Part shown: positions 4,831 through 23,921 of the stretch, piece after piece
Numbering within the stretch: position 1 is the first letter of the stretch
How the letters are laid out: each line of letters begins with the position of its first letter
Source of the DNA: Caldilineaceae bacterium
GTDB lineage: Bacteria > Chloroflexota > Anaerolineae > Caldilineales > Caldilineaceae
Direction: 5' to 3'
NCBI GenBank assembly: GCA_022824685.1
Contig: JAJDZJ010000232.1
Location: forward strand, 1 to 37,433
Length of the DNA stretch: 37,433 nucleotides
Notes under the pieces: model-generated
The model's input: the letters and a program-made list of their open reading frames with translations, nothing else
Told to the model about the DNA's origin: nothing
The model's database searches: none
Program-made: the position numbers and the translations under genes

Positions 4831-4840
4831 CCGGTCAGGG
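4825..4840. repeat. 16-bp perfect palindrome spanning two convergent stop codons
   Basis: CCCTGACCGGTCAGGG reads identically on both strands. It contains the TGA of the aldo/keto reductase (4828-4830) and the TGA of the minus-strand nuoN (4835-4837). It might help stop transcription from both sides, but there is no U-tract on either strand. Confidence 0.6.
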
Positions 4841-6340
4841 AACCACTGATAGCAGCTGGACCGAGGCGGTGCTGACCCAGTCGAGCACTGCGCTGGGATA
4901 GACGCCGATCCAGACCGTGGCGACGGTGCAGATGAGGAGACTGGTCTGCAACGCCATGGGTACCTCGAGGGTTTCGCCTTCGCCCTCGTGGGTGAAGAAC
5001 ATTTCCCGCACGACACGCAAATAGTAGAAGGCCGCGATGCCGGCATTGATCATGCCAATGCCGGCGAGCCAGAAGTATTGGCGCTGAATGGCTGCGCCGA
5101 AGACGTAGAATTTGCCGAAGAAGCCGCCTGTAAGCGGGATGCCGGTGAGGCTGAGCAGGAAGATGGTGAACATGACGGCCAGCCAGGGCGCGCGCTTGAT
5201 CAGACCGCGGTAGGCGCTGATATGCGTGCTGTCGACCGTTTCTTCCAGCGCCATCACGACCAGGAAAGCGCCGACGTTGGTAAACAGGTAGGCGAAGAGA
5301 TAGAGGAGGACGCCGTTGAGGCCGTCCATGGCGCTCGGCGAAGAGGAAGTGACGGCGACCAGCCCCATCAGGATGTAGCCGGCCTGGGCAACCGAGCTGT
5401 ATGCGATCATGCGCTTGACACTGCTCTGCCGCAACGCGGCCAGATTGCCCATTGACATGGTGATAATACTGAAGGCGGCCAGCACCGGCACCCAGTTGAC
5501 TTCGAAGGAGGCCATGGCCACGATGAAGAAACGGGCCAGCACGGCAAAGGCGGCGGCCTTTGAGGCAGTGGAAAGATAGGTTGCCACGGGCGTAGGGGAG
5601 CCGTCGTAGGTGTCGGGCGCCCACTGATAGAAGGGAGCCAGGCTTGCCTTGAAGCCCAGGCCAGCCAGGATCAGGAGCATGGCGGGCAGGCCGGCGAATG
5701 CCAGCCCGCTGATTTCGCGCGAGTCACCGATGATTTCGGTGAACGCGGCTGCGATTTCATGCAGGTAGAGTGAGCCGGTTGCGCCGTAAAGAAGGCTGAT
5801 GCCGTACAGCATAACCGCAGAAGCGATGGAGCCGTAAAGAAAGTATTTGAGCCCAGCCTCATTGCTGCGCCGATTCTCGCGCAGGAAACCGGCCAGCATA
5901 TAGCTTGTAATCGACAAGAACTCGATGGCGAGATAGACGAGGACAAGGTTATTGGCGCTGACGGCGATGCTCATGGCCAGGCTGACCATCAGGAAGAAGG
6001 TCCAGAATTCGCCCTGGTTGCCGGAGCGGCGGTTCATATAGCGGCCGCCGGCGATGGTGGTCAGAATCATGCCGGAGAATATGGTCAACTTGATGAAGCT
6101 GCCGAAGTTGTCGATGGTCATCATCGAGAAGGCCACCTTCGGCCCGGCCTCGGGGTCGGAGATGTTCAACTGCAACACGGCGGCAACCAGCGCGGCTGTC
6201 AGGAACAGGGCCGACAATGCCATGTAACTCAGCCCCGACTTCTTGCCCACGCCGGGGTCGTAGGCCACATCCAGACAGAAGATAAAGAGGGCCCCGATCA
6301 GAAGTATGATTTCGGGTGCGATATATCCTAGGTCGCCCAC
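4835..6340 (-). CDS. nuoN: NADH-quinone oxidoreductase subunit N (second, membrane-only cluster)
   Basis: A 501-residue antiporter-like membrane subunit of complex I with about 14 hydrophobic segments. Family motifs are visible: FLSITSYMLAGF with its glutamate just before (about 140), LGFKASLAPFYQWAPD with the central lysine, TPVATYLSTASKAAAF, and LRQSSVKRMIAYSSVAQAGY. The start is GTG 6340, supported by TGGAGA about 9 nt upstream. It is the last gene of the minus-strand cluster and is separated from nuoM by 109 bp holding a large hairpin. It is diverged from the plus-strand NuoN, so it is not a recent copy. In the complex it would form one of the three proton-pumping modules. Confidence 0.93.
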   Translation of the reverse strand: MGDLGYIAPEIILLIGALFIFCLDVAYDPGVGKKSGLSYMALSALFLTAALVAAVLQLNISDPEAGPKVAFSMMTIDNFGSFIKLTIFSGMILTTIAGGRYMNRRSGNQGEFWTFFLMVSLAMSIAVSANNLVLVYLAIEFLSITSYMLAGFLRENRRSNEAGLKYFLYGSIASAVMLYGISLLYGATGSLYLHEIAAAFTEIIGDSREISGLAFAGLPAMLLILAGLGFKASLAPFYQWAPDTYDGSPTPVATYLSTASKAAAFAVLARFFIVAMASFEVNWVPVLAAFSIITMSMGNLAALRQSSVKRMIAYSSVAQAGYILMGLVAVTSSSPSAMDGLNGVLLYLFAYLFTNVGAFLVVMALEETVDSTHISAYRGLIKRAPWLAVMFTIFLLSLTGIPLTGGFFGKFYVFGAAIQRQYFWLAGIGMINAGIAAFYYLRVVREMFFTHEGEGETLEVPMALQTSLLICTVATVWIGVYPSAVLDWVSTASVQLLSVVP

Positions 6341-6449: not shown

Positions 6450-8048
6450 TCAGATGAGATTCTGGACAAAGGCCAGGAGCTCCTGGGCTGACTTGTTGAA
6501 ATAGCTCACCAGAGGCGTTGGATAGATGCCGATCAGGAACATCGCTGCAATCAGGGGCCACATGGTGACCTTTTCGAAGCCGACCATATCGGTGGGGCCG
6601 TCGGCGTGTTCCCCTTGGACGGTTGTCCAGTGGGTGAGTTTGGCGGGGTCATATTCGCCCAGGAACACATTCTGGATGATGCGATAGAGAATGTAGACGG
6701 CTGTGATGACGATGCCGATGGTGCCGAAGGCGGCCCAGTAGGGCATGATGGCAAAGGCTCCGCGGAACGTGAAGAGCTCTGCCCAGAAGCCGGCGAGGCC
6801 GGGCAGCCCCAGGCTGGCGAAAGCGGCTGTGAGCATCAGGCCGTAGAAGTGCGGCGTTTTGGTCGCCAGGCCGCCAAAGCGAGACAGATCGCGCGTGTGC
6901 GCGCGTTCATAGATAATCCCAACGAGGAAAAACAGCGCCCCGGTTATGATGCCGTGGTTGAACATCTGCAGGGCGGCGCCGTTGAGCGCCATGGCCGCGC
7001 TGTCCTGGATGGCCTGGGGCGTGAGGCCGAAGCGGTTGACCGCGCTGGCCAGGCCCTCAGGCGTCATGACCGCGGCCGCGGCGCCGATGCCGAGCATGAC
7101 ATAGCCCATATGGCTGACCGAGCTGTATGCGATCAGCCTCTTGAGATCGGTCTGGGCAACGCAGACGAAGGCGCCGTAGACGATGGCGATCGCGCCGAGG
7201 CCGACCAGCCAGGTAGCCCAATAGACGGAGGCCTCGGGGAAGCTGGGCAACATGATGCGCAGCATGCCGTAGGCGCCCAGCTTCAGCAGAACGCCGGCCA
7301 GAATGACCGACCCGGCGGTGGGGGCCTCGGTATGGGCATCGGGAAGCCAGGTGTGGAAGGGGAAGCTGGGCACTTTGAACGCGAAACCCAGGAAGAATCC
7401 CCAGAAGGCGAGACTTGCCAGCGTCAGGTTGCCGGCGAAGGGCTTGGCTGCGGCCGCTTCGACGATATCGAAGGTGCCGGTGGCGAAGTAGACTCCCAGG
7501 ATTGCGAGCAGCATCGCCACCGAGCCGACCAAGGTGTAGATAAAGAACTTGGTGGCCGCGTAACCGCGGTTTTCGCCGCCCCAGATACCGATGAGGAAGT
7601 ACATCGGGACTAGGCTGATTTCCCAGAAGACATAGAACAGGACGTAGTCCAGGGCCAGAAAGACGCCCAGCATACTGAATTCCAGCAGGTGCATCAAGAA
7701 GAAGTATTCCTTGACGCGCTCGTTGATCACGCCCGCGCTATAGTAGAGGCTCAGGGTGCTGAGCAGGGCGGTGAGGAAGAGCAAGGGAATGCTCAGTCCG
7801 TCGACGCCGATGTGGTAACCGGCGTTGAGTTGGGGAATCCACTCTGCGAACTGCTCAAACTGCATGCCGCCCGCGGCGGAGTCGTAGGCAAAGAGCAGGT
7901 AGATGCTGAGGCCAAGAGGAAGCAGGCTTGCCCAGATCGAGCCTTTCTTGATCTGGCTGTCGCTCCTGCCAAGCAGGATCACCAGCAGCGCCGAGACCAG
8001 CGGCCAGAAGAGCAGTATTGTCAGGACGATTGAATCAAGTGATTCCAT
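6450..8048 (-). CDS. nuoM: NADH-quinone oxidoreductase subunit M (second, membrane-only cluster)
   Basis: A 532-residue antiporter-like subunit. The key charged residues for proton transfer are retained: E143 in VFWEISL and K225 in FAFKVPSFPFHTW, followed by LPDAHTEAPTAGSV. HMGYVMLGIG and the usual transmembrane pattern of about 14 helices are also present. A loop of about 20 residues (MTPEGLASAVNRFGLTPQA) in the region of residue 335 is absent from the plus-strand NuoM. The start is ATG 8048, with GGAGA upstream. Retained pump residues indicate that this second membrane arm is probably functional. Confidence 0.94.
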   Translation of the reverse strand: MESLDSIVLTILLFWPLVSALLVILLGRSDSQIKKGSIWASLLPLGLSIYLLFAYDSAAGGMQFEQFAEWIPQLNAGYHIGVDGLSIPLLFLTALLSTLSLYYSAGVINERVKEYFFLMHLLEFSMLGVFLALDYVLFYVFWEISLVPMYFLIGIWGGENRGYAATKFFIYTLVGSVAMLLAILGVYFATGTFDIVEAAAAKPFAGNLTLASLAFWGFFLGFAFKVPSFPFHTWLPDAHTEAPTAGSVILAGVLLKLGAYGMLRIMLPSFPEASVYWATWLVGLGAIAIVYGAFVCVAQTDLKRLIAYSSVSHMGYVMLGIGAAAAVMTPEGLASAVNRFGLTPQAIQDSAAMALNGAALQMFNHGIITGALFFLVGIIYERAHTRDLSRFGGLATKTPHFYGLMLTAAFASLGLPGLAGFWAELFTFRGAFAIMPYWAAFGTIGIVITAVYILYRIIQNVFLGEYDPAKLTHWTTVQGEHADGPTDMVGFEKVTMWPLIAAMFLIGIYPTPLVSYFNKSAQELLAFVQNLI

Positions 8049-8152: not shown

Positions 8153-10378
8153 TTACACCAGCGTCAGTATCATGGGCAAGACGTTCAGGAACAGCCACAC
8201 GGCCAGGATCAACATACCGAACAGCAGGTATGTCTGCACGCGTCCATCCTGCAACAGGCGGGCAAGGTGGCCGGCCTGGTCAGAGATCCAGCCGACACCG
8301 TCTACAAAGCCATCGACCACGAATCTGTCGAAGGCGGAAGCGAGATCGCCGAGGCGGAGGGCAGTCCGGCCTACGCCATTGACGAACCAGTCTATGATCC
8401 ACTCCCGGTCGAACAGCGCCAGGAAGCGGCTCAGCCACATCGTGAACAGAACGATGGTGCCGTTATACAGTTCGTCGATCCAATATTTGCGGTGCCACAT
8501 CCACCAGATTGGGCCGAGCACGCGCGCGACGGGATCGGTCTGGCCTTCCTTCAGCCCCTGGCCGTAAACAAGGTAGCCTGCGCCGAGTCCGCCCAGAGCC
8601 ACCAGCAGCGAAACAGCCAGCGGCAGGATATGAAAATCAGGGTGAACCGGATAGAGGTGCATATACTTCATATAGGGTTCAACGAAGTGCGCCAGCCAGT
8701 TGGGAACGATGCCGCCCAGGACAGGGAAGGTTTCGGGGATCCCGACCCACCCGGCCGCGATGGCGAAGAAGCTGATCAGGATCAACGGGGTCGTCATGCT
8801 GGCGACGCTTTCGGGGGCGTGCGAGGCGCCTTCGGTGCGGGCCTGGCCCAGGAAGGTCAGCCCAATTTGGCGCATGGTGTAGAAGGCGGTGAGGAAAGCT
8901 GACAGGGCAAGCGTCCAGAAAAGCCACTGATGGTTGCCGTGCCAGGCGAATGCAAGGATTTCATCTTTGGACCAGAAGCCGGCGGTGACCAGGGGGAAGC
9001 CCGAGAGGGCAAGGCCGCCGATGATAAAGGTCCAGCCGGTTCTGGGCATACGGGACAGGAGGCCGCCCATGTTGCGCATGTCCTGGGCGTCTTCAGTGTC
9101 GAGAATGCCGTCGGCGCGGCGAACGATGTGTGGTTCGCCGTGGTGTTCGTCGTGGTCGTCGTGCGCGTGCTCGTGGGCATGATGGTAGCCATGCTCAACA
9201 CCGTGAATCACGCTGCCTGAGCCGAGGAACAGGAGCGCCTTGAAGAAGGCGTGGGTCAGAAGGTGGAAGAGCGCGGCCAAATAGGCCCCCATACCGATGG
9301 CGGCCACCATGTATCCGAGTTGTGAGATTGTGGAATAGGCCAGCACCCGTTTGATGTCCCATTGGGCCAGTGCGATGGTCGCCGCGAACAGGGCTGTAAA
9401 CGCGCCGATGAAGGCGACGAACTGCAGGGTACCGGTGGAGACCTGGCCGGAGAATTCGTAGATGGGGAACATGCGCACGAGCAGGAATACGCCGGCCGAC
9501 ACCATGGTGGCCGCGTGAATCATGGCGCTGACCGGGGTCGGCCCTTCCATGGCGTCGGGCAGCCAGATGTGCAGCGGGAACTGGGCGCTCTTGCCGATTG
9601 CGCCGCAGAAGATGAGGACGCCGATAAGCGAAATCCAGTGAACTTCGCCGAAGACGGGAATGTTCACGAGCGTGTCGGCGAGCTGATCCAGGTTGGCTTC
9701 GGTGAACAGTTCGCTGAAGCGGAGGCTGCTGGGCTCGCTGCGGACGTAAAGCAGGATCAGGCCGATCATGAGAAGGGCGTCGCCGATGCGCGTGGTGATG
9801 AAGGCCTTAACGGCTGCGGCCCTCGCCGAAGCCTTCTCATACCAGAAGCCGATCAGCAGGTAGCTGCAGAGCCCCATCACTTCCCAGAAGATAAAGAACT
9901 GGAGCAGGTTGTTCGCGACGACCAGGCCCAACATGCCCGTTGCGAACAGACAGATGTAGGCCATGAAACGGCTGTAACGGGGATCCTTGCCCTGGGCGTA
10001 GGCGGTTGGATATTGGGCAGCCTGGAGGTGGTGGGGGTAGGTCATGTAGCCGCTGGAGTAGATGAAGATCATCAGGACCAGGAAGGGCACCATGAAGAGC
10101 ATCAGAGCATTGGAGGGATCCACGGCATAGCCGATGACGAATTCGGTTGCGCCCGTGGGAATGGTGTAGATCGCCTCGTCGATCGGGTGGTCGCCGAAAT
10201 GATCACGGAAGAAGGAGGCAAAGGCGATGCCCCAACCGAGGATGCAGCTGAGGAGGGCGGCGCCGATCGCGGTCAGGGCGCTGCCCCGCTTATTTTTGTT
10301 CAAAAAGAGCACGATCGCCAGGAATGCCAGGAAGGGAGGGATTGGCACAACCCAGGTGACGCTGAATAGTCCTTCCAT
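8153..10378 (-). CDS. nuoL: NADH-quinone oxidoreductase subunit L (second, membrane-only cluster), His-rich insertion
   Basis: A 741-residue distal antiporter-like subunit, about 100 residues longer than the plus-strand NuoL. Conserved elements include E166 in [15 protein letters not shown], the [16 protein letters not shown] segment with its lysine, [30 protein letters not shown], and GFWSKDEIL. Between HG and the DMRNMGGL segment there is an insertion with 10 histidines in 22 residues (396-417), mixed with Asp and Glu, a likely metal- or proton-binding loop. The C-terminus (about 640-741) contains the long lateral-helix region and a final membrane anchor. The start is ATG 10378, with GAGG upstream. 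Confidence 0.94.
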
Positions 10379-10447: not shown

Positions 10448-10801
10448 CTAAGACGTAGCGGGCCTTCGTACCAGATTGGCAACGACATACCCTGCGAGCA
10501 GGCCGGCAAATGCCAGGGCAAAGAGCCACAGATCGTTCTGAAGCCCGGCGAAAGAACCAGCGGCCAGAAACAGGGCTGCGCCGGCAAGAGAGATGATCAG
10601 GCGAAATGATTGCGCTTTCTTGCGTTTTCGCGCGTCTTCCAAGAGCTGCGCCGCGTCAGCATATTCGGGCTTGTGCTTTACGATCTCTTTGAGCGCATAG
10701 ACTGCGCCGGTGTAGTTTCCGCTCGCCATTTTTTCCTGGGCGAGCTGGTAGAGAAAGTCGCACTGCTCTTCCAGTGTGCCCGTCAACTGCCTCTTGGCCA
10801 C
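10448..10801 (-). CDS. Small TPR protein with two C-terminal membrane helices, in the nuo cluster
   Basis: A 117-residue protein of unknown function. Residues 14-47 fit one tetratricopeptide repeat (LYQLAQEKMASGNYTGAVYA, then ALKEIVKHKPEY), followed by a basic stretch RKRKKAQ (58-64). Two hydrophobic helices follow at about 66-85 and 90-111, ending in RR. By the positive-inside rule, the TPR part should be cytoplasmic. The start appears to be GTG 10801; an upstream ATG at 10809 is out of frame. It is embedded between nuoK and nuoL on the same strand with gaps of 62 and 69 bp, so it is almost certainly co-transcribed. A role in assembly of this membrane arm, or in docking a partner, is inference only. 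Confidence 0.72.
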   Translation of the reverse strand: MAKRQLTGTLEEQCDFLYQLAQEKMASGNYTGAVYALKEIVKHKPEYADAAQLLEDARKRKKAQSFRLIISLAGAALFLAAGSFAGLQNDLWLFALAFAGLLAGYVVANLVRRPATS

Positions 10802-10863: not shown

Positions 10864-11178
10864 TCAGCCCGCAAGAACGTCCAGCTCGTCGACATCGATG
10901 GTGCGCCGCTCGCGGTAGACAGCGATAATCAGGGCCAGGCCGACGGCGGCCTCGGCGGCCGCAAGGCCGATGATGAGTACGGCAAAGGCCTGGCCGGTCA
11001 GGTCTTCCATGGGTCCGACGCCGTGGCGCCAGAAGGCCACCAGGTTGATATTGGCTGCGTTGAGCATCAGCTCGATGCCCATCAGCATGGCGATGGCATT
11101 GCGCCTTGCGAGCGCGCCGTACAGGCCGCACGAAAACAGGAAGGCGGCGAGCATCAGATACCAACTGAGCGGAACCAT
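10864..11178 (-). CDS. nuoK: NADH-quinone oxidoreductase subunit K (second, membrane-only cluster)
   Basis: A 104-residue protein with three transmembrane helices. It carries the conserved membrane glutamates in GIELMLNAANINLVAF (middle helix) and AAAEAAVGLALIIAVYR (third helix), which form part of the hydrophilic axis between NuoH/A/J and the antiporter subunits. The start is ATG 11178, with GAGGT upstream. It lies between nuoJ and the TPR gene. Length and motif spacing are normal for the family. Confidence 0.93.
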   Translation of the reverse strand: MVPLSWYLMLAAFLFSCGLYGALARRNAIAMLMGIELMLNAANINLVAFWRHGVGPMEDLTGQAFAVLIIGLAAAEAAVGLALIIAVYRERRTIDVDELDVLAG

Positions 11179-11259: not shown

Positions 11260-11790
11260 TTACCGATCGCGTGCCAGCATCACTGCCCCGACCAGGGCCA
11301 CCAGCAGCAGCAGGCCCAATACTTCAAATGCGATAACGTAAGTCGTGACGAACTCTCTTCCCAGTTGCCCTATCAGCGCTTCGTCAGCGACGACTTCCTC
11401 GCCGGCGGCGGGCCAGGGCGTTGCCCTGGCAAAAGCAAGCAAGGCGCTGAAAAAGAGAATCGCGAACAGAGACGACTTGCCCCACTGGTTGTTGAGCGGG
11501 GAGGTGCGCCCGAACATCATGCTGCGCGTGAGCATGATGGCGAAGGCGATCAGCATGGCGATCGCGCCGACGTACACAAGGACCTGGCTTACGGCGAGGA
11601 ATTCGGCCTCCAGGAAGATATAGACGCCGGCGACGCCGAAGAATGTCAACGTCAGGGCGAGGGCGCTGTGAAAGAGGTTGCGGCTGATCACCACCGCCAG
11701 GGCGGCGACCGCGGTCAGCAGCGCCACCTGGATGAACACGAACTGTTCGAATGTTGGAATCGGTACCTCGATACCCAGCGGTAACTGCAT
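11260..11790 (-). CDS. nuoJ: NADH-quinone oxidoreductase subunit J (second, membrane-only cluster)
   Basis: A 176-residue protein with five transmembrane helices. It shows the NuoJ signature of the third helix region (FLAVSQVLVYVGAIAMLIAF), where a helix bulge drives coupling in the family, preceded by SALALTLTFFGVAGVYIFL. The C-terminal helix reads FEVLGLLLLVALVGAVML. The start is ATG 11790. It follows nuoH directly; the nuoI that normally separates H and J is absent. The plus-strand NuoJ is similar in size but clearly diverged. Confidence 0.92.
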   Translation of the reverse strand: MQLPLGIEVPIPTFEQFVFIQVALLTAVAALAVVISRNLFHSALALTLTFFGVAGVYIFLEAEFLAVSQVLVYVGAIAMLIAFAIMLTRSMMFGRTSPLNNQWGKSSLFAILFFSALLAFARATPWPAAGEEVVADEALIGQLGREFVTTYVIAFEVLGLLLLVALVGAVMLARDR

Positions 11791-11859: not shown

Positions 11860-13101
11860 CTAATACATTGTGCCTTTTTCGGACACCTGCATCCCGCCGA
11901 TGAGCGAGGTCGGTTCGAAAGAGCGCTTTGTCCGAATCTGTTCCTCGCGGAAGTATTTCTGCAGAACATAGGCAACGACGGCCATGACACCGACATTGGC
12001 GATGAAGATCAGCACGTATTGGATTGCGACCGGTGTGGGCAGCTTCTGGATGATGGCCTGGGCGACGATCAGGCCGATCATCAGCGGAACCAGGACCTTC
12101 CAGGCAAAGTACATCATCTGATCGATGCGGATACGGGGGAAGGTGCCGCGGATCCACTGCTGCAGTACATAGACGCCGTACACTTTGATCATAAAGTAGC
12201 CGAGGCCCAGGATGGGCCCGATGACGGGCAAGCCGACGCCGGGGCCCTGCCAGCCGCCGAGAAAGAGCGTGACGGCCACGGCGCCGAGGATCCAGGCATT
12301 CAGGAACTGGGCCAGGAAGAACATAGCGAACTTCATGCCGGAATACTCGATGTGGAATCCCGCGATCAACTCGGATTCGGCTTCGAGCAGGTCAAAGGGG
12401 GTGAGCTCGGCTTCGGCAAGGGAGCTGACGAAGAAGACGATCAGCGCGCCGGGCATGACGATACCAAGCCAGCCCAATCCGAGATTGAAGCCGGCCACGT
12501 GCAGCGACTGCATTTCGACGATCTGGCCGAAGCGCATCGAACCGGTGAGCAGCACAACCGTGAGGATGGCCAATACCAGGGGGATTTCATAGCTCAGGAG
12601 CTGGGCTACGACGCGAAAACCGGCCAGCAGCGCATACTTGTTGTTGCTGCCCCACCCGGCCATCAGCGCGGCCATAATGCCGATGGAGCCAAGCGCCACA
12701 ACGTAGAGGGCCGCGACGTTCAGATCGACGCCGGTCAGCCCCGGCGCGAATGGGATGACCGCCAGCAGCATCAGCACACCGAAAACCGCGAGGATGGGCG
12801 AAAGGTTGTAGGCGATTTTGTCTGCTTCGTAGGGCGTGATGTCCTCTTTGGAGAGCAGTTTTGCGGCGTCAGCAACGGTTTGGAGGAGTCCGTACTTGCC
12901 GACGCGGTTGGGCCCTATCCGATCCTGGATGCGGCTGATCGCTTTGCGGGTGATCCAGATAAGCAACAGCACAGACAACATGCCGTAGTTGATCAGGATA
13001 AAGGAGCCGACGGCGTAGACGAGAAAGATGGCCGCCCAGCCAGGAAGTCCCAGCCCCATGAGCCAGCCGGAGAGCGCTTCGCTCCATTGGGTTACCTGCA
13101 T
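11860..13101 (-). CDS. nuoH: NADH-quinone oxidoreductase subunit H (second, membrane-only cluster), C-terminally extended
   Basis: A 413-residue membrane subunit that, with NuoB and NuoD, forms the quinone site. The first loop is conserved: [19 protein letters not shown] (57-74) and KEDITP. The TM5-6 loop is altered: [17 protein letters not shown] (229-245), where the plus-strand copy has [17 protein letters not shown], so the conserved Arg and Pro are Leu here. The helix after it ends FFLAQF instead of FFIAEY. About 60 extra residues at the C-terminus add one membrane helix (about 359-381) and a charged tail. The start is ATG 13101, with GGAGG upstream. No nuoB, C, D or I gene accompanies it in this cluster. 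Confidence 0.93.
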
Positions 13102-13186: not shown

Positions 13187-13543
13187 TTATTGCCACTCCA
13201 AGGCGCCCTTGCGCCAGTCGTACAAGAGACCGATCACAAGCAGCAGGACAAAGAAGATTGTGGCGAGAACGGCGAACATTTCCAGTTGCTGATATGCCAC
13301 CGCGATTGGAAAGAGAAACAGCGCTTCCACGTCGAATACGACGAATACCAGGCCTATTAGATAGTACTGGGCGCGAAATTGCACCCAAGTCTCGCCAATC
13401 GTTTCGACGCCGCTCTCATAGATGTCGTTCTTAATCTCATCGGGCCGGCGGGGACCAAGAAAGTGGCCCATCACGATGGCGGCGAGGGGCAAGACCACGG
13501 CCAGGCCGGACATGATCAGAATGAAGAAATATTGACTGAGCAT
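13187..13543 (-). CDS. nuoA: NADH-quinone oxidoreductase subunit A (second cluster), NdhC-like
   Basis: A 118-residue, three-helix subunit. The family core is present: [36 protein letters not shown] with the conserved Asp and Glu, and the ending [12 protein letters not shown]. The segments following YESG and at the C-terminus resemble cyanobacterial NdhC (a QF...YY pattern and WRKGALEW) more than the adjacent plus-strand NuoA. The frame is open further upstream, but the start ATG 13543 gives the normal length. The mapped extended -10 at 13587-13595 also excludes longer forms. The ribosome site is weak. It is the first gene of the minus-strand cluster. Confidence 0.9.
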
Positions 13544-13586
13544 TGCCGAGAATCCGTTTGTGTGGAAATTAACAATCTCCCGCAAA

Positions 13587-13595
13587 AGTATAGCA
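13587..13595 (-). promoter_or_regulatory. Extended -10 promoter of the minus-strand nuo cluster
   Basis: On the minus strand TGCTATACT gives a TG-N extended -10 with TATACT (5 of 6 consensus). The -35 region is poor, as is common for extended -10 promoters. Expected transcription start is about 13580, giving a leader of about 37 nt before ATG 13543. The same TGN-TATACT form occurs upstream of mreB. Confidence 0.5.
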
Positions 13596-13727
13596 TAGCG
13601 ATTTCTGATAGCGAAAGTCTGTACCCTTTGTAAACGCAAAAGGCGGGAGAGCAGGGGCGAGGGGACAGGGGCGACGGGCAGTCGGCGTTTGGTTGGCGGA
13701 ACTGAGAGCATTTGGCGCGGATGGGCT

Positions 13728-13757
13728 TTGACAGTCGATTTCGGTTCGTGCTAGAAT
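13728..13757 (+). promoter_or_regulatory. Sigma-70-type promoter of the plus-strand nuo operon
   Basis: A perfect -35 TTGACA (13728-13733), an 18-bp spacer, and -10 TAGAAT (13752-13757, 5 of 6). Expected start is near 13764, leaving about 64 nt of leader before nuoA ATG 13828. This placement rules out an in-frame ATG at 13756 as the nuoA start. Confidence 0.75.
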
Positions 13758-13785
13758 GAAATCGTTCGTGGAAAAATGCACGAAC
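13744..13785. promoter_or_regulatory. GTTCGTG repeat set: putative operator or 5' mRNA hairpin
   Basis: GTTCGTG occurs at 13744-13750 (in the promoter spacer, touching the -10) and again at 13764-13770 (at the expected start site), exactly 20 bp apart, or two helical turns. An inverted CACGAAC lies at 13779-13785. The last two form a perfect 7-bp inverted repeat with an 8-nt spacer. Either a repressor binds here, or the repeat folds as a hairpin at the mRNA 5' end. Confidence 0.45.
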
Positions 13786-13827
13786 AGTTCCCCAGGCCTA
13801 TCAGGAGCGCGGAAAAGGAATGTCGGG

Positions 13828-14184
13828 ATGGCAAGCGATTATCTGCCACTTCTCATTTTGATCCTGTTGGCGGCCGGATTCGGCGCGATCGCCATAGGGC
13901 TGCCAGCCCTGCTTGGGCCGCGAGAGCGCAACAAACAGAAGTTGGAGCCATACGAGTCGGGGATCATCCCTTTTGCCGACGCCCGTCGGCGGTTCCCGGT
14001 GAAATACTATCTTGTTGCGATGCTCTTCCTGATATTCGACATCGAAGTCATCTTCCTCTTCCCGTGGGCGGCAGTCTTGAGAGACCTTCGCCTGTTTGCG
14101 CTACTGGCGATGGTTCCCTTTTTCATTGTACTCGTGGTAGGTTTCCTCTATGAATGGAAGAAGGGCGCTCTCGACTGGGACTAG
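13828..14184 (+). CDS. nuoA: NADH-quinone oxidoreductase subunit A (complete operon)
   Basis: A 118-residue three-helix subunit at the junction between the membrane and peripheral arms. Motifs: LGPRERNKQKLEPYESG, FPVKYYLVAMLFLIFDIEV with the conserved Asp/Glu pair, and LYEWKKGALDW. The pattern is that of Nqo7-type bacterial subunits. ATG 13828 is chosen because AAGGA lies 8 nt upstream and the promoter -10 overlaps the alternative ATG at 13756. It heads the 12-gene operon; nuoB follows after 159 bp. Confidence 0.93.
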   Translation: MASDYLPLLILILLAAGFGAIAIGLPALLGPRERNKQKLEPYESGIIPFADARRRFPVKYYLVAMLFLIFDIEVIFLFPWAAVLRDLRLFALLAMVPFFIVLVVGFLYEWKKGALDWD

Positions 14185-14343
14185 AGGCTGGGGAATCGCT
14201 GGCCGCGCACGGTCTTTCTCAGGCAACGAACAACAGATAGTTTGGGACGAACAGCAATAGGGCATTGAAAGCCGAGTGCCAGACGCCGCCCCCCCAACCT
14301 GCCGCCGGCGACACGGCTGAAATGCAGATGCAAAGGAACGGAA

Positions 14344-14871
14344 ATGGGCATAGAAGAAAAGGTTCCTGAAGGCATTTTGACCACCTCGCTGGACAGCGTT
14401 GTCAATTGGGGAAGGGCCAATAGCACATGGCCCTTGCTCTTTGGTTTGGCCTGTTGCGCGATGGAGATGATCGCCACCGGAACGGCGCGACACGACATTG
14501 CCCGTTACGGTTCGGAGCTGTTTCGGGCCAGCCCGCGGCAGGCGGATCTGATGATCGTTTCCGGGCGCGTCAGCAACAAGATGGCCCCGGTCATCAAACG
14601 GATCTACGATCAGATGCTGGCCCCAAAATGGGTAATCGCGATGGGAATCTGCGCCAGCGCCGGCGGGCCATTCAACAATTACGCCATCATTCAAGGGGTC
14701 GACAAGATCATCCCCGTGGATGTCTACGTGCCCGGATGCCCTCCTCGACCTGAGTCACTTCTATATGCGATGGACATGTTGCGCGCGAAGCAGCGACGCG
14801 AGACGATCGGGGCCGGCCGCAAGGTAGAGGAGCCGCTGGCGGTTGATGAGATCATGCCCCTGGGCGTTTGA
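14344..14871 (+). CDS. nuoB: NADH-quinone oxidoreductase subunit B (N2 cluster)
   Basis: A 175-residue peripheral-arm subunit that carries the terminal [4Fe-4S] cluster N2, the direct electron donor to quinone. Ligands are visible: C37 and C38 in [10 protein letters not shown]103 in [13 protein letters not shown], and C132 in VPGCPPRPE. All four are intact. The start is ATG 14344, with AAAGGA upstream. This is the only nuoB in the window, so any complex built on the minus-strand membrane arm would need this copy or one encoded elsewhere. Confidence 0.95.
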
Positions 14872-14985
14872 AGCCGCGTTGAGAATAACGGGTCTGCCGC
14901 CGAGCGACGGGCCATCTTGCCCGCGTTGTGAACCGTATCTAGTATTTGTCCTGGCAGGCGTGGAATAGAGAGAGCGAGTTTAGCG

Positions 14986-16836
14986 ATGCCTCTTGATGTT
15001 GCACCAGTAATTCGTTCATACGAGACCCAGCGCACGTTGAACCCGCCGGGCATCCCCGCTTTGGCGCCTCCGCCAGAGGGCGAAACGGAGGATATTCGAC
15101 GAATTGCAGGACGGTTTGGGGAGGACATTCCGGCGGCCGGTCTGCATCACGGCAATCAGGTCGTGTATGCGCAGCCGGGGCAGCTGAAAGCGCTGGCGAC
15201 ATTTCTGCGCGACGATCCCCAACTCCAATACGAGACGCTGATCGACGTCACGAGCGTGGACCGATCCGAACTGCCGTTGGACGGGGAGGCCCGCTTTCAG
15301 ACGATTTACCAGTTTCGTTCCTACTCGAGAAACCAGCATTTGACGGTCGTCACGGACTGTCGAAGCGGCACGGAGGGCAATGGGACGAGCCCGCACGTCG
15401 ACAGCCTGACATCTGTATACCGGGGCGCGGAATGGCCCGAACGGGAAGTCTTCGACCTGATGGGGATCCGGTTCGACGGGCACCCCGACCCCCGCCGGAT
15501 CCTGATGCCAAAGAACTGGCCCAACCATCCGCTGCAGAAGCAGGCGCCTCTAGGCGGCGAGGAGGTCCCGTTTACCTTTACGTGGGACGACCCTGAGTTT
15601 GATACGCTCGGCACGCAGATTTTGGCGGCGGAGAGTGTCGCGCCGGACCTGCCGCCCGGGATGAGCCGCCAGAATATGGTGATCAACATGGGGCCCCACC
15701 ACCCGAGTACACACGGCGTGTTGCGTTTGGTGGTGGAGCTGGACGGCGAGCGCGTCGTGAGCATCGATCCGGATCTGGGTTTTCTCCACTCCGGGTTTGA
15801 AAAGACGGGAGAGAACAAGCGCTACAAGGACTTTGTCTATTATACCGACCGCATGGACTATCTGTCCTCGATGTCGAACAACCTGGGCTACTGTCTGACG
15901 GTCGAGCAAATGCTGGGGTTGGAGATTCCGGAGCGGGCGCAGGTGATCCGGGTCATCATGGCGGAGATGCAGCGAATCGCTTCGCATCTCTTCTGGCTGG
16001 CCACCCATGTGTTGGATGTTTCGGGCACGGGCATGAGCCTTCTGATGTACGCCACCCGCGAGCGGGAGCGGATTCTGGACCTGTTTGAGATGGCTTGCGG
16101 GGCCAGGCTGACGGTCAGCTATATTCGCATTGGCGGCGTTTGGCAGGATTTGCCGGACGCCTTTGTGGCCGAATTGAAGGATTTTCTGCGCCTGATGCCG
16201 CAGAAGATCAGCGAGTACGAGGCGATGGTGACTGAGGCGCCGCTGTGGCAGGAGCGCCTGAAGGGCGTCGGTCACGTCAGCGCCGAGGACGCGCTGGCCA
16301 TGGGACTGACGGGGCCGATGCTGCGCGGCAGCGGCGTGGACTGGGATCTGCGCCGGGACCGGCCGTACAGCGGCTACGAGGAGTATACGTTCGAGGTGCC
16401 GACCCGTGACAGCGGCGACTGTTACGGGCGCTTTACCCTGCGGTTAGAGGAGATGCGGCAGAGCGTGCGGATTTTGGAGCAGGCGGTGGACAATCTGCCC
16501 AGCGGCCTGTACAGGTCAAACAATCGCAAGGTGGCCCTGCCGCCGCGCGCCGAGCTGGACGTGAGTATGGAGGCGTTGATCCATCACTTCAAGCTGATGA
16601 CGGAAGGATTCCATGTTGAGCCCGGCTTCTTCTACCACGGCATTGAGAGCAGCAAGGGCGAGCTGGGCTTCTTCATCTACAGCGACGGCTCGGCCAAGCC
16701 GTACCGCCTGCATGTTCACGGGCCCAGCTTCAATAATCTTTATGCCATCGACCATATCAGTCGCGGCGAGATGCTGTCCGACGTTGTCACCAACATTGGG
16801 TCGATCGACATAGTCTTAGGCGAGGTTGACAGATAG
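14986..16836 (+). CDS. nuoCD: NADH-quinone oxidoreductase fused subunit C/D
   Basis: One 616-residue frame encodes both NuoC and NuoD. The NuoC domain (about 35-215) has IDVTSVDRSE and the WPEREVFDLMGIRFDGHPD signature. NuoD starts near 230 with NMGPHHPSTHGVLR (234-247), holding the quinone-pocket histidines. It continues with YTDRMDYLSSMSNNLGY and ends with DIVLGEVDR, the usual NuoD terminus. A short linker (about 216-232) joins them. The start ATG 14986 has only a weak purine-rich ribosome site. Fusion of C and D is known from other bacteria, including E. coli. It is followed directly by the fused nuoE-F gene. Confidence 0.95.
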   Translation: MPLDVAPVIRSYETQRTLNPPGIPALAPPPEGETEDIRRIAGRFGEDIPAAGLHHGNQVVYAQPGQLKALATFLRDDPQLQYETLIDVTSVDRSELPLDGEARFQTIYQFRSYSRNQHLTVVTDCRSGTEGNGTSPHVDSLTSVYRGAEWPEREVFDLMGIRFDGHPDPRRILMPKNWPNHPLQKQAPLGGEEVPFTFTWDDPEFDTLGTQILAAESVAPDLPPGMSRQNMVINMGPHHPSTHGVLRLVVELDGERVVSIDPDLGFLHSGFEKTGENKRYKDFVYYTDRMDYLSSMSNNLGYCLTVEQMLGLEIPERAQVIRVIMAEMQRIASHLFWLATHVLDVSGTGMSLLMYATRERERILDLFEMACGARLTVSYIRIGGVWQDLPDAFVAELKDFLRLMPQKISEYEAMVTEAPLWQERLKGVGHVSAEDALAMGLTGPMLRGSGVDWDLRRDRPYSGYEEYTFEVPTRDSGDCYGRFTLRLEEMRQSVRILEQAVDNLPSGLYRSNNRKVALPPRAELDVSMEALIHHFKLMTEGFHVEPGFFYHGIESSKGELGFFIYSDGSAKPYRLHVHGPSFNNLYAIDHISRGEMLSDVVTNIGSIDIVLGEVDR

Positions 16837-16903
16837 CGCCGGGTCCGTTGGAAAGGCCCCGCACGGGTCATCCCGGATTGTCCAGCGCCAACTGGGGTAT
16901 GCA

Positions 16904-18880
16904 ATGATCACGGAACAGATGCGGCAGGAGATCGACGAGATACTGGCACGGTATCCCGCGGGCCGGGAACGGTCGGGCATTCTGCCGGCGCTCTATGTGA
17001 TTCAGCGGGAGCACGGCTACTGCCCGGTGGAAGAGCAGGACGAACTGGCGGAGATTCTGGGCATCGCGCCGGCGGAGGTGGGCGCGGTTGTCGGTTTCTA
17101 CAACATGCTGCATGAGGAGCCGAAGGGCGAATATCATATCGAAGTGTGCACCAATGTGCCCTGTATGTTGCGGGGCGGCAACCGGTGCCTCCACAACTTC
17201 GAGACGACGCTCGGCATCCATCACGGCGAAAGAACCGAGGACGGCCAGTTTGCGCTTGATCATATGGAGTGCCTGGGTTCATGCGGCACGGCGCCGATGG
17301 CGATCGTCACCGACCAGAAGAGCGGTGAGATCCGGTATTTTGAGAACCTCAAATCGGCTGCGGATGTGGAGAAGGCGGTCGATGTGTTGAAGTCCGGCAA
17401 CGGATTCCGCAGCCTGGAGCGCTGGACGCCTGAGGCCGATCCTGACAACAAAGGCGCGGCAGACGGGCCCTACCTGACGGACGGCATGGAGCCCCGCTAT
17501 CTGATGGACCGTCTGAACGAGCCGGACAGCCACAAGATCGCGACATACGAGGCCTACGGCGGCTACGCCGCGGCGCGGCGGACGCTGGAAGAGATTGAGC
17601 CGGCCGATATGGTCGATCAGATCAAGGAGAGCGGCATTCGCGGGCGGGGCGGGGCCGGTTTCCCCACCGGCGTCAAGTGGGGCTTTCTGCCGCCGGAGAC
17701 GCGGCCCAGGTACATGGTTGTGAATGCCGACGAGTCGGAGCCGGGCACGTTCAAAGACCGCATCATCATGGAGTACGACCCGCACCAGCTGATCGAAGGC
17801 ATCATTCTGAGTTGCCACGCGATTGAGTCGGAGAAGGCCTTCATCTATATTCGCGGCGAGTATTACTTTGCTTATACGCGATTGGAGGAGGCTCTCGCGG
17901 AAGCCACGGCCAAGGGATACCTGGGCGAGAACATTTTTGGCAGCGGCAAGAACCTGGACATTGTGCTTCACCGGGGCGCGGGCGCGTACGAGTGCGGGGA
18001 AGAGACGGCCCAGCTTACGAGCCTGGAGGGCTACCGGGGCGAGCCGCGCCTCAAGCCGCCGTTCCCTGCCGTGGAGGGGCTGTACGCCAAGCCGACCATT
18101 GTGAACAATGTCGAGTCGATCTGCAACGTGACCCACGTCATGCGGCACGGTGTCGACTGGTACAAGGCGTATGGGACCGAGCGCAGCCCAGGCATGCGGA
18201 TTTTCTGCTTGAGCGGCAATGTGAAGCGGCCTGGACTATACGAACTTCCCCACGCCACGCCTCTGAGCGAGCTGGTGAACAGGTATGGCGGCGGGCCGGA
18301 GGACGAGAGTCACCCCATCAAGGCGATCGTGCCCGGCGGCCTTTCGATGAAGCTGCTGACTCCGGACCAGTTTGATACGCCGCTGGACTATGAGAGCGTG
18401 GCGGAGGCGGGGTCACTGCTTGGCTCGGCCGGCGTGATCGCGATTGACGACCGCACCTCGATGGTTGAGGTGGCGAGGCGCACGCTCAGCTTCTATCGCG
18501 AGGAGAGTTGCGGCAAGTGCACCCCATGCCGCGAGGGCACGGCCTGGTTGGAGAAGATCCTGCTGCGCATTGAGGAGGGGCAGGGCTTGGGCAGAGATCT
18601 GGAACTGATGGAGTACATCGCGGACAATATCGCCGGCAAGAGTTTCTGCCCCTTTGGCGAGGCTTCTGTCTGGGGCCTACAGAGCAATCTGATCAAGTTC
18701 CGCGGCGAGTTTGCCACCCAGAGCGAGAGCACCAATCCGGACGAGATTGGGCCGGTGCTGCCGATTCGCCCGGATTACCGCCCGAATACGCACGAGGAGA
18801 GCGGTTTGCGCGACAGCACATTTGCGCCGGTCGGCGGGAATATCGTGCTGCATGATGACCTGGTTCCCGGGGACGACTGA
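16904..18880 (+). CDS. nuoEF: NADH-quinone oxidoreductase fused subunit E/F (NADH-oxidising module)
   Basis: A 658-residue fusion. The NuoE part (about 1-165) keeps the [2Fe-2S] N1a ligands C82, C87, C123 and C127 (EVCTNVPC, ECLGSCG). After a linker of about 50 residues, NuoF carries the FMN/NADH motif GRGGAGFPTGVKWGF (about 246-260), NADESEPGTFKDR, and the [4Fe-4S] N3 ligands in ESCGKCTPCREG (about 533-544), plus a late Cys in FCPFGEA near 582. ATG 16904 is the best start because it places the first helix at the usual NuoE position. A TTG at 16826 would overlap nuoCD and add unrelated residues. The module transfers hydride from NADH to the Fe-S chain. Confidence 0.94.
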   Translation: MITEQMRQEIDEILARYPAGRERSGILPALYVIQREHGYCPVEEQDELAEILGIAPAEVGAVVGFYNMLHEEPKGEYHIEVCTNVPCMLRGGNRCLHNFETTLGIHHGERTEDGQFALDHMECLGSCGTAPMAIVTDQKSGEIRYFENLKSAADVEKAVDVLKSGNGFRSLERWTPEADPDNKGAADGPYLTDGMEPRYLMDRLNEPDSHKIATYEAYGGYAAARRTLEEIEPADMVDQIKESGIRGRGGAGFPTGVKWGFLPPETRPRYMVVNADESEPGTFKDRIIMEYDPHQLIEGIILSCHAIESEKAFIYIRGEYYFAYTRLEEALAEATAKGYLGENIFGSGKNLDIVLHRGAGAYECGEETAQLTSLEGYRGEPRLKPPFPAVEGLYAKPTIVNNVESICNVTHVMRHGVDWYKAYGTERSPGMRIFCLSGNVKRPGLYELPHATPLSELVNRYGGGPEDESHPIKAIVPGGLSMKLLTPDQFDTPLDYESVAEAGSLLGSAGVIAIDDRTSMVEVARRTLSFYREESCGKCTPCREGTAWLEKILLRIEEGQGLGRDLELMEYIADNIAGKSFCPFGEASVWGLQSNLIKFRGEFATQSESTNPDEIGPVLPIRPDYRPNTHEESGLRDSTFAPVGGNIVLHDDLVPGDD

Positions 18881-18891
18881 GAGAGTTTTCG

Positions 18892-19065
18892 ATGGCTTTT
18901 GTCGCGCGACCTGTTGCGCTGGGCGCGAGCGCAGAGGTCAGGAGCGAGCGGGATCCTATGCGGGACGCTGATTCCGCCTCGCCGCTTGCTTTTCCTGATT
19001 TCATGGTGAAGATTGGCGAACAACTGCCGCCAGCCGAAGTCGCGGCCCGATTCCGCCGCTCCTGA
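18892..19065 (+). CDS. Possible small protein between nuoEF and nuoG
   Basis: A 57-codon frame from ATG 18892 to TGA 19065 lies wholly within the 220-bp gap. GAGAG stands 8 nt before the ATG. The product begins MAFVARPVALGASAEV and ends MVKIGEQLPPAEVAARFRRS. It is Ala/Arg-rich, has no membrane helix, and is not a family I recognise. A strong hairpin lies within its first third. It may be real and co-translated, or just spacer sequence that happens to be open. Confidence 0.25.
   Translation: MAFVARPVALGASAEVRSERDPMRDADSASPLAFPDFMVKIGEQLPPAEVAARFRRS
18908..18939 (+). repeat. Two-part hairpin in the nuoEF-nuoG gap
   Basis: GACCT (18908-18912) pairs with AGGTC (18935-18939), and TGCGCT (18915-18920) pairs with AGCGCA (18928-18933). 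The result is an 11-bp interrupted stem with a GGGCGCG loop. It starts 27 nt after the nuoEF stop. No U-tract. It could be a processing or stability element in the longest gap of the plus-strand operon. Confidence 0.4.
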
Positions 19066-19100
19066 AAGAAATCTCTTCTGATTCGGAGACTTAACTGTCC

Positions 19101-21590
19101 ATGGCTGATCACGTAACGCTTACAATCAACGAGAAGGAAGTGTCGGTCCCTGCCAGGACGCTGCTGGTTGACGCGGCGCGCATGGCGGGTGTCGAGATTC
19201 CAGTTTTTTGTTCGCATCCCAAATTGGATCCGGTCGGCTGTTGCCGCATGTGCCTGGTGGAGGTGGATGGGCCGCGCGGGACAGCGATGATGGCCTCGTG
19301 TACGATGCCGGTGGGCGACGGCATGGTTGTGCGAACCGACACCGAGCAGGTGCGGACGGTGCAGGAGGCCAATCTGGGGTTTATCCTGCTGAATCATCCG
19401 CTCGACTGCCCGATCTGCGATAAGGGCGGGGAGTGCCCGTTGCAGGACCAGACGATGCGCTTTGGCCAGGGCATCAGCCAGTTGATCGAACCGAAGCGGC
19501 TGGCCAAAAAGCATTACGACATTTCGGATACGATCGTACTGGACCAGGAACGGTGCGTTCTTTGCTGGCGCTGCATCCGGTATCTGGAAGAGTGGGAGGA
19601 CAAGCCGCAGCTGGGTCTTTTCGAGCGGGGCAACGATACGATCGTTGACATTCAGGAAGGCCGGCCGGTCGACGCCAAGACGAGCGGCAACATCATCGAC
19701 CTTTGCCCTGTAGGCGCGCTGACGAATCGCGTCTCCCGCTTCTCATACCGTCCCTGGGAGATTGAACGGACGCCCAGTATTTGCATGCACTGTTCGGTGG
19801 GCTGCAATGTGCGGCTGGACAGCCGTACGCACCAGTTGCGGCGCATCGTTGGGCGTGAAAACATGCAGGTCAATGATCAGTGGATCTGCGACAAAGGACG
19901 TTTCGCGCACGGATGGGTAAACGACGAGAAGCGGCTGGCGGCACCGCTGCTGCGCAAGAACGGCAGGCTGACGCAGGTACAGTGGAGCGAGGCGCTGGCC
20001 TACATCGCAGGCAAGGCGGCCGGCATCAAGGAGAAGTACGGCGCTGATGCCATCGGCGCCATCGGCAGCGGCAAGATCAGCAATGAGAGCAACTACGCGC
20101 TGCAGCGTTTCATGCGCGGTGTGATTGGGACGAACAACATCGACCACCGCGATGGCGGTGATGTCGCGGCGCTGCCCACGGGCCTGCCGGCCCTGGCAGA
20201 GCTGATGAAACCGCAGTACGGGCCGGACCCGCAGGTGGATACGGTCCTGCTCTTTGGCGTGGACCCGAGCGAAGAGTTGCCGGTGCTGGACCTGCATCTG
20301 AAACGGGCCATCCTCCGGGGCGGTGTCAAGCTGATCATTGCCCACGCGCGCAAGATTGAGCTGACCCGCTACGAGGGTCCCTACCTGGCCTACAGACCGG
20401 GCGAGGAGATTCCGCTGATAGACAGCCTGAAGCAGGCTGTACAGGGATCGGGTGAAGCCGATGGTGATTCAGCGGCGCAAGCAGCCGCCGAACTGCTCTC
20501 GGAGAGCGAGAAGGCGTTGATCATCTATGGGCCGATGGCCGCGCGCGGGGAGAGCGGCCCCGGTGTCCGTCTGGGCCTGGAACAGCTCGCCCAGGCCGCC
20601 GGCGAAGGCACAAGCGTCGCCTACGTCGGGCTGGATGGAAACGCCCAGGGCTGCCGCGACATGGGCGTTCTTCCCGACCGGCTGCCCGGCCAGTTCCCGC
20701 TGGACGATGCAGAGGCAAAGGCCAGGCTGGAGAGGCTATGGGGCTGCACGCTATCCGGTTCGCCCGGGTATTCCTATAAGCAGATGCTGGACAGCCAGGA
20801 GATGAGAGGCCTCTTTGTGAACGGGGCCAACCCGGCCGCGGAATCGCCGGATTGGGCCGCCAGCCTTGATGACCTGGACCTGCTGGTGGTCACCGATTTG
20901 CTGCCGACGGAAACGGCAGAGAAGGCGGATGTTGTGTTGCCGGCGCAGGGATGGGCCGAGAGCGACGGCACCTACACCAACCTGGAAAGGCGGGTGCAAA
21001 GGGCGCCGAAAGCTGTGGCCGACCCCAAGTCACGCGCCGCGCCGGACTGGATGATCTTCATACACCTGGCCAGGCAGATGGGAGCGGCATGGCCGTTCAC
21101 CGACGTCCGCAGCGTCACTGAAGAGATCACATGGGCCGTGCCCGCGTATGCCGGCCTGAATTGGGAGGCGCTGGGCGATCAGGGCCGTCAATGGGCGGCA
21201 GAGGCGGCGCCTTCAACGGCGGAATCCATAGGGCGCGCCACAGCGGGGGTACCCGCCGCAGCCTCTGCAGAGGCCGACTATCCCCTCAGTCTTGTAACCG
21301 GCACCGTCCTCTACGACGGTGGCACGCTATTCGGTCTGACCGAGCAGATGCACGGAATGGCCCATAGCGCCACCGTTACGCTCAATCCCGATGACGCGGC
21401 CACATTCGGCGTGGAGGCGGGCAGTCCGGTCACTGTGCAAAGTGATCAGGGGCAACTTGAGGTGACCGCGGCGGTCGATGCCCAGGTGCAGCAGGGCACC
21501 GCCTGGATTCCGGAGAGTCTGCCCGGCGCGCCGGTAGGGGCGCTGCTCAACGGCAGCTATACCCAGCGCGTCAAGGTGGAAAGGCGTTAA
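19101..21590 (+). CDS. nuoG: NADH-quinone oxidoreductase subunit G
   Basis: An 829-residue peripheral-arm subunit with a full Fe-S chain. [2Fe-2S] N1b uses C37, C48, C51 and C67. [4Fe-4S] N5 uses H99, C103, C106 and C112. N4 uses C152, C155, C158 and C202. The optional off-path N7 cluster is also present: C228, C231, C235 and C263, with the C-x2-C-x3-C-x27-C spacing. A molybdopterin-oxidoreductase-like fold follows (about 270-690), and a C-terminal dinucleotide-binding-type domain closes the protein (about 735-829). The start is ATG 19101, with GGAGA about 11 nt upstream. Its TAA abuts the nuoH ATG without spacing, indicating translational coupling. Confidence 0.95.
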   Translation: MADHVTLTINEKEVSVPARTLLVDAARMAGVEIPVFCSHPKLDPVGCCRMCLVEVDGPRGTAMMASCTMPVGDGMVVRTDTEQVRTVQEANLGFILLNHPLDCPICDKGGECPLQDQTMRFGQGISQLIEPKRLAKKHYDISDTIVLDQERCVLCWRCIRYLEEWEDKPQLGLFERGNDTIVDIQEGRPVDAKTSGNIIDLCPVGALTNRVSRFSYRPWEIERTPSICMHCSVGCNVRLDSRTHQLRRIVGRENMQVNDQWICDKGRFAHGWVNDEKRLAAPLLRKNGRLTQVQWSEALAYIAGKAAGIKEKYGADAIGAIGSGKISNESNYALQRFMRGVIGTNNIDHRDGGDVAALPTGLPALAELMKPQYGPDPQVDTVLLFGVDPSEELPVLDLHLKRAILRGGVKLIIAHARKIELTRYEGPYLAYRPGEEIPLIDSLKQAVQGSGEADGDSAAQAAAELLSESEKALIIYGPMAARGESGPGVRLGLEQLAQAAGEGTSVAYVGLDGNAQGCRDMGVLPDRLPGQFPLDDAEAKARLERLWGCTLSGSPGYSYKQMLDSQEMRGLFVNGANPAAESPDWAASLDDLDLLVVTDLLPTETAEKADVVLPAQGWAESDGTYTNLERRVQRAPKAVADPKSRAAPDWMIFIHLARQMGAAWPFTDVRSVTEEITWAVPAYAGLNWEALGDQGRQWAAEAAPSTAESIGRATAGVPAAASAEADYPLSLVTGTVLYDGGTLFGLTEQMHGMAHSATVTLNPDDAATFGVEAGSPVTVQSDQGQLEVTAAVDAQVQQGTAWIPESLPGAPVGALLNGSYTQRVKVERR

Positions 21591-22571: not shown

Positions 22572-22596
22572 GCGCAGCAAGGAAAAGAGGATTTCG

Positions 22597-23067: not shown

Positions 23068-23073
23068 CATTTC

Positions 23074-23619: not shown

Positions 23620-23921
23620 TGGTTGAGACAAGCTACTACCTGATTCTGGCTGCGATCATCTTTTCTATCGGCGCGACCGGTGTATTGTTGCGGCGAAACG
23701 CATTGATTATTTTCATGTGCATCGAAATGATGTTGAACAGCGTAAACCTGACTTTGATCGCGCTCGCCCGCCAGTGGGGCAGTCTGGAAGGGCAGATCTT
23801 TGTCTTCATGATCATGGCCGTGGCCGCTGCCGAAGTTGCCGTGGGGCTGGCGATTCTGATCGCCAATGTCCGCCACAGGCAGAGCATCAACATCGACGAA
23901 ATCAATTTGCTGAGATGGTGA
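23619..23921 (+). CDS. nuoK: NADH-quinone oxidoreductase subunit K (complete operon)
   Basis: A 100-residue three-helix subunit. The conserved glutamates sit in FMCIEMMLNSVNLTLIA and AAAEVAVGLAILIAN, the central proton-transfer axis. ATG 23619 overlaps the nuoJ stop (TGATG); a GTG three bases earlier is also possible. A 118-bp gap with a duplicated ribosome-site segment separates it from nuoL. Confidence 0.94.
   Translation: MVETSYYLILAAIIFSIGATGVLLRRNALIIFMCIEMMLNSVNLTLIALARQWGSLEGQIFVFMIMAVAAAEVAVGLAILIANVRHRQSINIDEINLLRW

Follow-up and report, generated by a model that had tools for sequence, protein, structure and literature searches.

A TPR/two-helix protein encoded between nuoK and nuoL, a probable accessory component of a split 11-subunit complex I in Caldilineaceae

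The nuo genes of the window and orf117

As outlined in Table 1, the window (the whole stretch of DNA analysed here, 37,433 nucleotides from a Caldilineaceae bacterium) holds a membrane-only nuo cluster in the order A-H-J-K-orf117-L-M-N, which runs on the minus strand from position 13711 down to 4835. The ORF named orf117 is flanked on the same strand by nuoK at a distance of 62 bp and by nuoL at 69 bp; its coordinates and its placement with short gaps, both given in the initial annotation, proved correct. NuoH and NuoK of the cluster align to solved homologues over conserved stretches, and its NuoL carries a His/Asp-rich loop of 22 residues. A complete nuo operon, of which the initial annotation made no mention, runs divergently from a point 44 bp outside the minus-strand nuoA ORF. 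It is separate and no part of the split complex described below. Its nuoC and nuoD are fused, as are its nuoE and nuoF (14986-18880, plus strand), and its genes J to N were named from order and size only.

Table 1 Features of the window around orf117
Feature	Position	Strand	Remarks
nuoN, membrane-only cluster	4835-6340	-	PF00361 and position
nuoM (single M), membrane-only cluster	6450-8048	-	PF00361; TIGR01972 NuoM above cut-off
nuoL, membrane-only cluster	8153-10378	-	PF00361/PF00662; NCBIfam NuoL above cut-off
orf117	10448-10801	-	ORF of 117 aa, GTG start; TPR hairpin and two hydrophobic helices
orf117, two probable membrane helices (residues ~66-84 and 90-111)	10469-10606	-	hydrophobic helices in model
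orf117, TPR hairpin (residues 14-47)	10661-10762	-	Pfam matches, AlphaFold2 model, structure comparison
orf117, N-terminal signature LxG[TSP][LVI]xxQ (residues 6-13)	10763-10786	-	regular expression and reading by eye
nuoK, membrane-only cluster	10864-11178	-	PF00420; best solved match cyanobacterial-type subunit 4L, 6hum_E
nuoJ, membrane-only cluster	11260-11790	-	PF00499
nuoH, membrane-only cluster	11860-13101	-	PF00146; 13-residue stretch aligned to solved ND1/NdhA
nuoA, membrane-only cluster	13187-13711	-	PF00507 at residues 77-173; true start probably further inside
Complete nuo operon A-B-CD-EF-G-H-I-J-K-L-M-N	13756-29023	+	nuoA by Pfam, EF and G by NCBIfam, nuoH

In nearly all orthologue rows the start codon of orf117 (ATG or GTG) occupies the same position, the alignment A1 (47 rows) has a mean column identity of 57%, and dN/dS varied between 0.04 and 0.24 in all 17 pairs examined. 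Because of this common start, column identity and dN/dS, orf117 is more than a chance ORF; it is a real, conserved gene.

The AlphaFold2 model of orf117, calculated on A1 with a mean pLDDT of 90.2, consists of helices at residues 10-26, 30-43, 50-84 and 90-111, the long one at 50-84 leading from the TPR cap into the first hydrophobic helix and the last two being hydrophobic as judged by eye. In Pfam the protein of the window gave weak TPR matches alone, below the curated cut-offs; TPR_19 was matched at E ≤ 0.01 in 31 of the 47 aligned orthologues. One unit of a 34-residue helix-turn-helix with the TPR residue pattern is present, and the model hairpin fits TPR structures in the structure comparison. 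The single TPR-like unit proposed initially is thus borne out, together with two C-terminal helices that probably lie in the membrane. As basic residues flank this hydrophobic pair, ahead of its first helix and behind its second, sequence and model suggest that both ends of orf117 are cytoplasmic and that the TPR faces the cytoplasm. The expression G.[LVI][DE][EKR]Q is true in 46 of the 47 rows of A1, the exception being L087. The signature LxG[TSP][LVI]xxQ is common to the orf117 rows of the families f1 (Caldilineaceae), f15 and f21 (further rows of f15 and f21 were read by eye) and is lacking in f27 and f31.

No nuo family was matched by orf117 in Pfam or NCBIfam, nor was homology to NuoA-N found, in agreement with the earlier statement that it is not a known complex I subunit. 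A Foldseek search against the PDB returned no match at E ≤ 0.001. The first solved match of the model was Fis1 (1nzn, Z 9.2, 1.5 Å over 54 residues), with designed TPRs and 14-3-3 chains scoring equally; the structure matches listed were mostly TPR and 14-3-3 chains, with no complex I accessory chain among them. Furthermore, Fis1_TPR_C was matched in 7/47 members, and the family profile reached Fis1 chains in the PDB at E of about 0.09-1. In tail-anchored TPR proteins of the Fis1 type a TPR hairpin and a capping helix precede a C-terminal membrane anchor, as in orf117, which we regard as a resemblance of fold only. Fis1 has more TPR helices than one hairpin and a single anchor helix, whereas orf117 has fewer TPR helices and two hydrophobic C-terminal ones.

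The two loci of the complex and the distribution of orf117

In the same genome, nuoB2-nuoCD2-nuoI2 are encoded on another contig (C104; L163:149-4039), apart from the window. Since A, H, J, K and three antiporter-type subunits are found in the window and B2-CD2-I2 on C104, the subunit set A, B, C, D, H, I, J, K, L, M and N is complete in this genome. Because the second module is encoded on that contig, the window cluster is, judged by gene content, the membrane half of a split 11-subunit complex I, with no E, F or G of its own seen. The initial annotation had proposed orf117 as an accessory or assembly factor or as an adaptor to a missing peripheral module; with the quinone module on C104 the word missing has to be dropped, whereas the adaptor gains from the co-loss described below. 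At the second locus B2 and I2 carry long charged C-terminal extensions, and the next gene resembles a hydrolase of the metallo-beta-lactamase type, as judged by eye.

No own copy of E or F was seen, and the locus of the second module, which was examined for them, contains no E, F or G. Outside the complete operon, a single E/F-like gene was found in the genome at E ≤ 1e-5, in a formate-dehydrogenase-like cluster on contig C146. There (L183:1636-6509) a NuoEF fusion and NuoG/FdhA-like genes resemble a soluble NAD-dependent formate dehydrogenase, and these nuoEF-like genes were set aside as a donor module on account of that resemblance.

In order to survey the second nuoB, the nuoB of the window was compared with 80 genomes chosen for a membrane-only cluster. 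Among the matches listed, at least two nuoB matches were obtained in 73 of these genomes; five of the other seven (G016, G124, G063, G301 and G358) had, by identity, the second nuoB type only, and two (G042 and G321) the first type only, yet orf117 is present in both. Neither a second nuoB nor NuoI2 was found in the assemblies of these two. As a second B-CD-I module exists, and as in the assemblies of G063, G301, G124 and G358 only that nuoB type was matched, we rejected as the main reading that the membrane-only module is an orphan or relies on the quinone module of the 14-subunit enzyme. The second-nuoB loci read B2-CD2-I2 in 35 of 39 cases; two end at the contig edge after CD2 and two (L168 and L179) hold nuoB only. 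On L168 (9486-10256, genome G029) a further nuoB2-like gene stands alone, without CD or I in 20 kb.

Membrane genes of the same kind occur unsplit with B, C, D and I and without E, F and G in 8 of 40 loci, some of them cut, from several other families. In the tree, B2 groups with the nuoB of these unsplit 11-gene clusters at 100/100, apart from the nuoB of the 14-subunit enzyme. None of the eight unsplit 11-gene loci seen contains orf117. In two unsplit clusters of f9 (L144:3361-4179 and L145:12871-13186) the nuoK-nuoL gap holds an unrelated nucleotidyltransferase-like frame, as read by eye.

The subunits A, B, C, D, H, I, J, K, L, M and N, with no own E, F or G seen, are those of the 11-subunit enzymes without NuoEFG, i.e. 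the Nuo of Desulfitobacterium and the cyanobacterial and chloroplast NDH-1, from which the present enzyme differs by its two loci, the C-D fusion, a long-tailed NuoI2 and the TPR/two-helix gene between nuoK and nuoL. NDH-1 has small membrane accessory subunits such as NdhL, and small Ndh subunits occur in cyanobacteria. Such NdhL-type subunits are likewise small membrane proteins added to an 11-subunit complex in one lineage; orf117 is set apart from them by its TPR hairpin, not by a direct comparison, and no NdhL-type accessory subunit was among the best 60 of 80 PDB chains for the orf117 family profile. For Chloroflexi with two NuoM, a passage in PMC7117926 (citing Chadwick 2018) describes nuoBCDI as lying apart and nuoCD as fused. 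This split 2M complex I of Anaerolinea-like Chloroflexi shares both the nuoBCDI separation and the fused nuoCD with our case, but here a single nuoM and orf117 are found, and that passage mentions no TPR gene.

By profile searches, which scored at most 11 candidates per genome and may miss very diverged copies, orf117 was found in 44 of the 46 genomes of its own family (f1) in a sample of 100 genomes, own included; the assemblies of the two exceptions (G028 and G033) also lack NuoI2. Within the class (Anaerolineae) 50 of 396 genomes gave a full-length match at E < 1e-32, namely 36 of f1, 8 of f15, 5 of f21 and 1 of f27. Weaker matches were a frame-broken copy in G226 (f15), a damaged copy in G075 (f31) and TPR-only matches, the latter mostly in long proteins. 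Among the 400 genomes sampled across the phylum orf117 was found only in its own genome, and four others gave TPR-only matches.

Every copy found was compared, amounting to 60 loci from other genomes. A prevalence of orthologues outside nuo contexts had been named at the outset as the observation that would speak against a tie to the nuo cluster, but all 60 loci adjoin nuoK or nuoL: 56 have orf117 between the two in the same orientation, in L084 and L110 it borders on one of them where the contig ends, and L060 and L087 have nuoK on one side and unrelated genes in the place of nuoL. The L060 genome shows 9% contamination and contains a second complete copy. On L087 (228-1901; G071, f27) the place after orf117 in which nuoL is expected is taken by a DNA-methyltransferase-like gene and a further ORF (by eye), and on L117 (8256-10515; G150, f21) about 2.3 kb with other ORFs is inserted between orf117 and nuoL.

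The expectation that orf117 always accompanies such clusters did not hold, and its reading as a universal part of split clusters was rejected, many of them lacking it. Membrane-only clusters without orf117 were found in f17, f24, f32, f14, f16, f19, f45, f55, f10 and the f15 genus g78 (here from the profile search and the nuoK-nuoL gaps of three genomes). In the genus g31 the gene has decayed in place: the copy of G226 is broken over two frames, and in G059 no more than a remnant (E 7e-5) is left between nuoK and nuoL. The other subunits of G226 are open over the aligned stretches except for one stop in nuoM; the breaks in f31 and G226 may partly be assembly errors. In the nuoM tree one clade (100/99) holds all clusters with orf117, unsplit clusters lying outside. 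At least five changes are required to map the orf117 label on this tree, in keeping with a single gain and repeated loss. In the membrane-only clusters of two f32 loci (L138:4914-9264 and L140:5802-11217) a 4-5 kb insert separates nuoL and nuoM.

Co-occurrence of orf117 and the NuoI2 tail

NuoI2 of the genomes bearing orf117 mostly has a long C-terminal extension, which is lacking in NuoI of the complete operon of the window (156 aa) and of the eight unsplit clusters (152-178 aa). In f1, NuoI2 consists of the Fe-S core, a variable linker and a terminal helix like ARMEELKRKAQERARQRK (18/18, with 7 invariant positions). The last 40 residues gave no other match in their own genome at E ≤ 10. For NuoI2, AlphaFold gave a poor model (pLDDT 55, pTM 0.31), in which the last helix at 256-283 falls in blocks of mean pLDDT 55-78.

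A 64-residue NuoI2 tail was used as query for the comparison of 19 genomes of f15. The whole tail was found in seven genomes, all with intact orf117; an eighth genome with intact orf117 (G321) has neither NuoI2 nor a second nuoB in its assembly. None of the 11 genomes without intact orf117 contains the whole tail, G226 giving a partial match in a frame that differs from that of the NuoI2 core, so that in this genome orf117 and the tail are both frame-broken. Where NuoI2 is complete, the tail is present in 7/7 genomes with intact orf117 and in 0/8 without (6 of g78, 2 of g31), three genomes of g78 (G263, G281 and G297) whose NuoI2 is cut by a contig end being outside this count. Within f15, orf117 and the 64-residue tail are kept and lost together, which is new here; the Fisher value of 1.6e-4 is uncorrected for ancestry and stands for few independent events. 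In the tree of concatenated membrane subunits, which includes four of the nine g78 genomes, the intact G214 is placed beside g31 (94.4/90), with g78 apart. Because G214 groups with g31 and g78 is separate, at least two co-losses would have occurred in f15 if that branch holds.

Outside f15 the NuoI2 helix was judged by eye, and f31, whose assembly is frame-broken in several genes, was left out. In the presence of orf117 the terminal helix was observed in 18/18 cases of f1, 4/4 of f21 (a fifth is cut) and 7/7 of f15, and in 0/1 of f27, whose single NuoI2 thus lacks the helix just as its orf117 lacks the N-terminal signature. In the absence of orf117 it was found in 0/5 cases of f17, 0/6 of g78, 0/2 of g31, 0/1 of f19 and 0/1 of f55, yet tails of the PEEIERRRxEAxxRR type occur without orf117 in f24 (2/2) and f32 (3/4). 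Since these two families keep tails without orf117, the link is not strict across families. The NuoB2 tail as partner of orf117 was not supported, because in f15 it does not differ in length between loci with orf117 (37-43 residues, 5 loci) and loci lacking it (38-44 residues, 5 loci).

Possible role of orf117

With respect to the sequence data as a whole, orf117 is very probably an accessory component, either subunit or assembly factor, of the split 11-subunit complex I and specific to this clade. The f15 comparison makes the NuoI2 tail its candidate partner, and we give an even chance to the mechanism in which orf117 would serve as a membrane-tethered TPR receptor for that tail. In the model, a single TPR with a capping helix on a membrane hairpin suits the binding of a short helical peptide. 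The two C-terminal helices would fix orf117 in the membrane, probably near the heel of the membrane arm, with the TPR hairpin toward the cytoplasm, where it most likely would receive the C-terminal helix of NuoI2 hanging on its long variable linker. Capture of NuoI2 would then tether or stabilise the separately made B2-CD2-I2 quinone module on the membrane arm. Both modules of the split complex are also retained where orf117 is absent (e.g. in G122 and G096); because such lineages keep the complex, orf117 would not be essential for docking but may help the module to dock or to stay docked. Tentatively, and with rather less than even confidence, we propose that this two-part docking device arose once in the class after the split, diversified together with the tail in each family and was co-lost more than once.

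The fixed place of orf117 in the membrane operon, its small size and its two hydrophobic helices would also suit a structural accessory of the membrane arm only, comparable to the small Ndh subunits of cyanobacteria, with a TPR that braces NuoK, NuoL or NuoH. In that case the NuoI2 tail would have a different binding partner, and the co-loss would follow from constraint being relaxed across the entire heel region. This reading appears rather unlikely to us: NuoK of the cluster is closest to a cyanobacterial-type NDH-1 subunit among the solved chains, and f24, f32 and f27 break the tail rule, but a pure membrane-arm role gives no account of why the NuoI2 tail, encoded at another locus, is lost with orf117 in g78 and g31. 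It is improbable, on the other hand, that orf117 is the receptor for a soluble electron donor, a ferredoxin or another oxidoreductase, in place of the absent NADH module E-F-G. The lack of E, F and G beside the second module is in line with such a role, and PMC11238625 leaves the donor of the 11-subunit enzyme open and proposes a docking platform; however, the membrane-only cluster holds no donor gene, the unsplit 11-gene loci do without orf117, and NuoI2 is the partner that correlates with orf117, even if a donor site might be formed in part by the NuoI2 tail. Finally, the lineages that keep the complex without orf117 would be compatible with an operon hitch-hiker of unrelated membrane function, which we consider very doubtful, as no full-length orf117 was found outside the cluster, its dN/dS is low (see above) and it is correlated with the NuoI2 tail in f15.

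The TPR fold, the 11-subunit enzymes and the split in Chloroflexi are already known; the orf117 family, its confinement to this type of cluster and the co-loss with the NuoI2 tail in f15 appear to be new. None of these three was found in the literature searched, which covered few subscription papers, and no bacterial TPR subunit is named in the one set of titles examined for it. In bacteria, complex I is mostly regarded as a machine with a set complement of 11 or 14 subunits. For this form of the enzyme, orf117 now provides a candidate for an accessory subunit and, together with the NuoI2 tail, a receptor-tail pair that can be put to the test. If the proposed docking is true, the split of the genes, followed by a TPR protein matched to the NuoI tail, would serve as a natural experiment on the way in which the arms of complex I come together.
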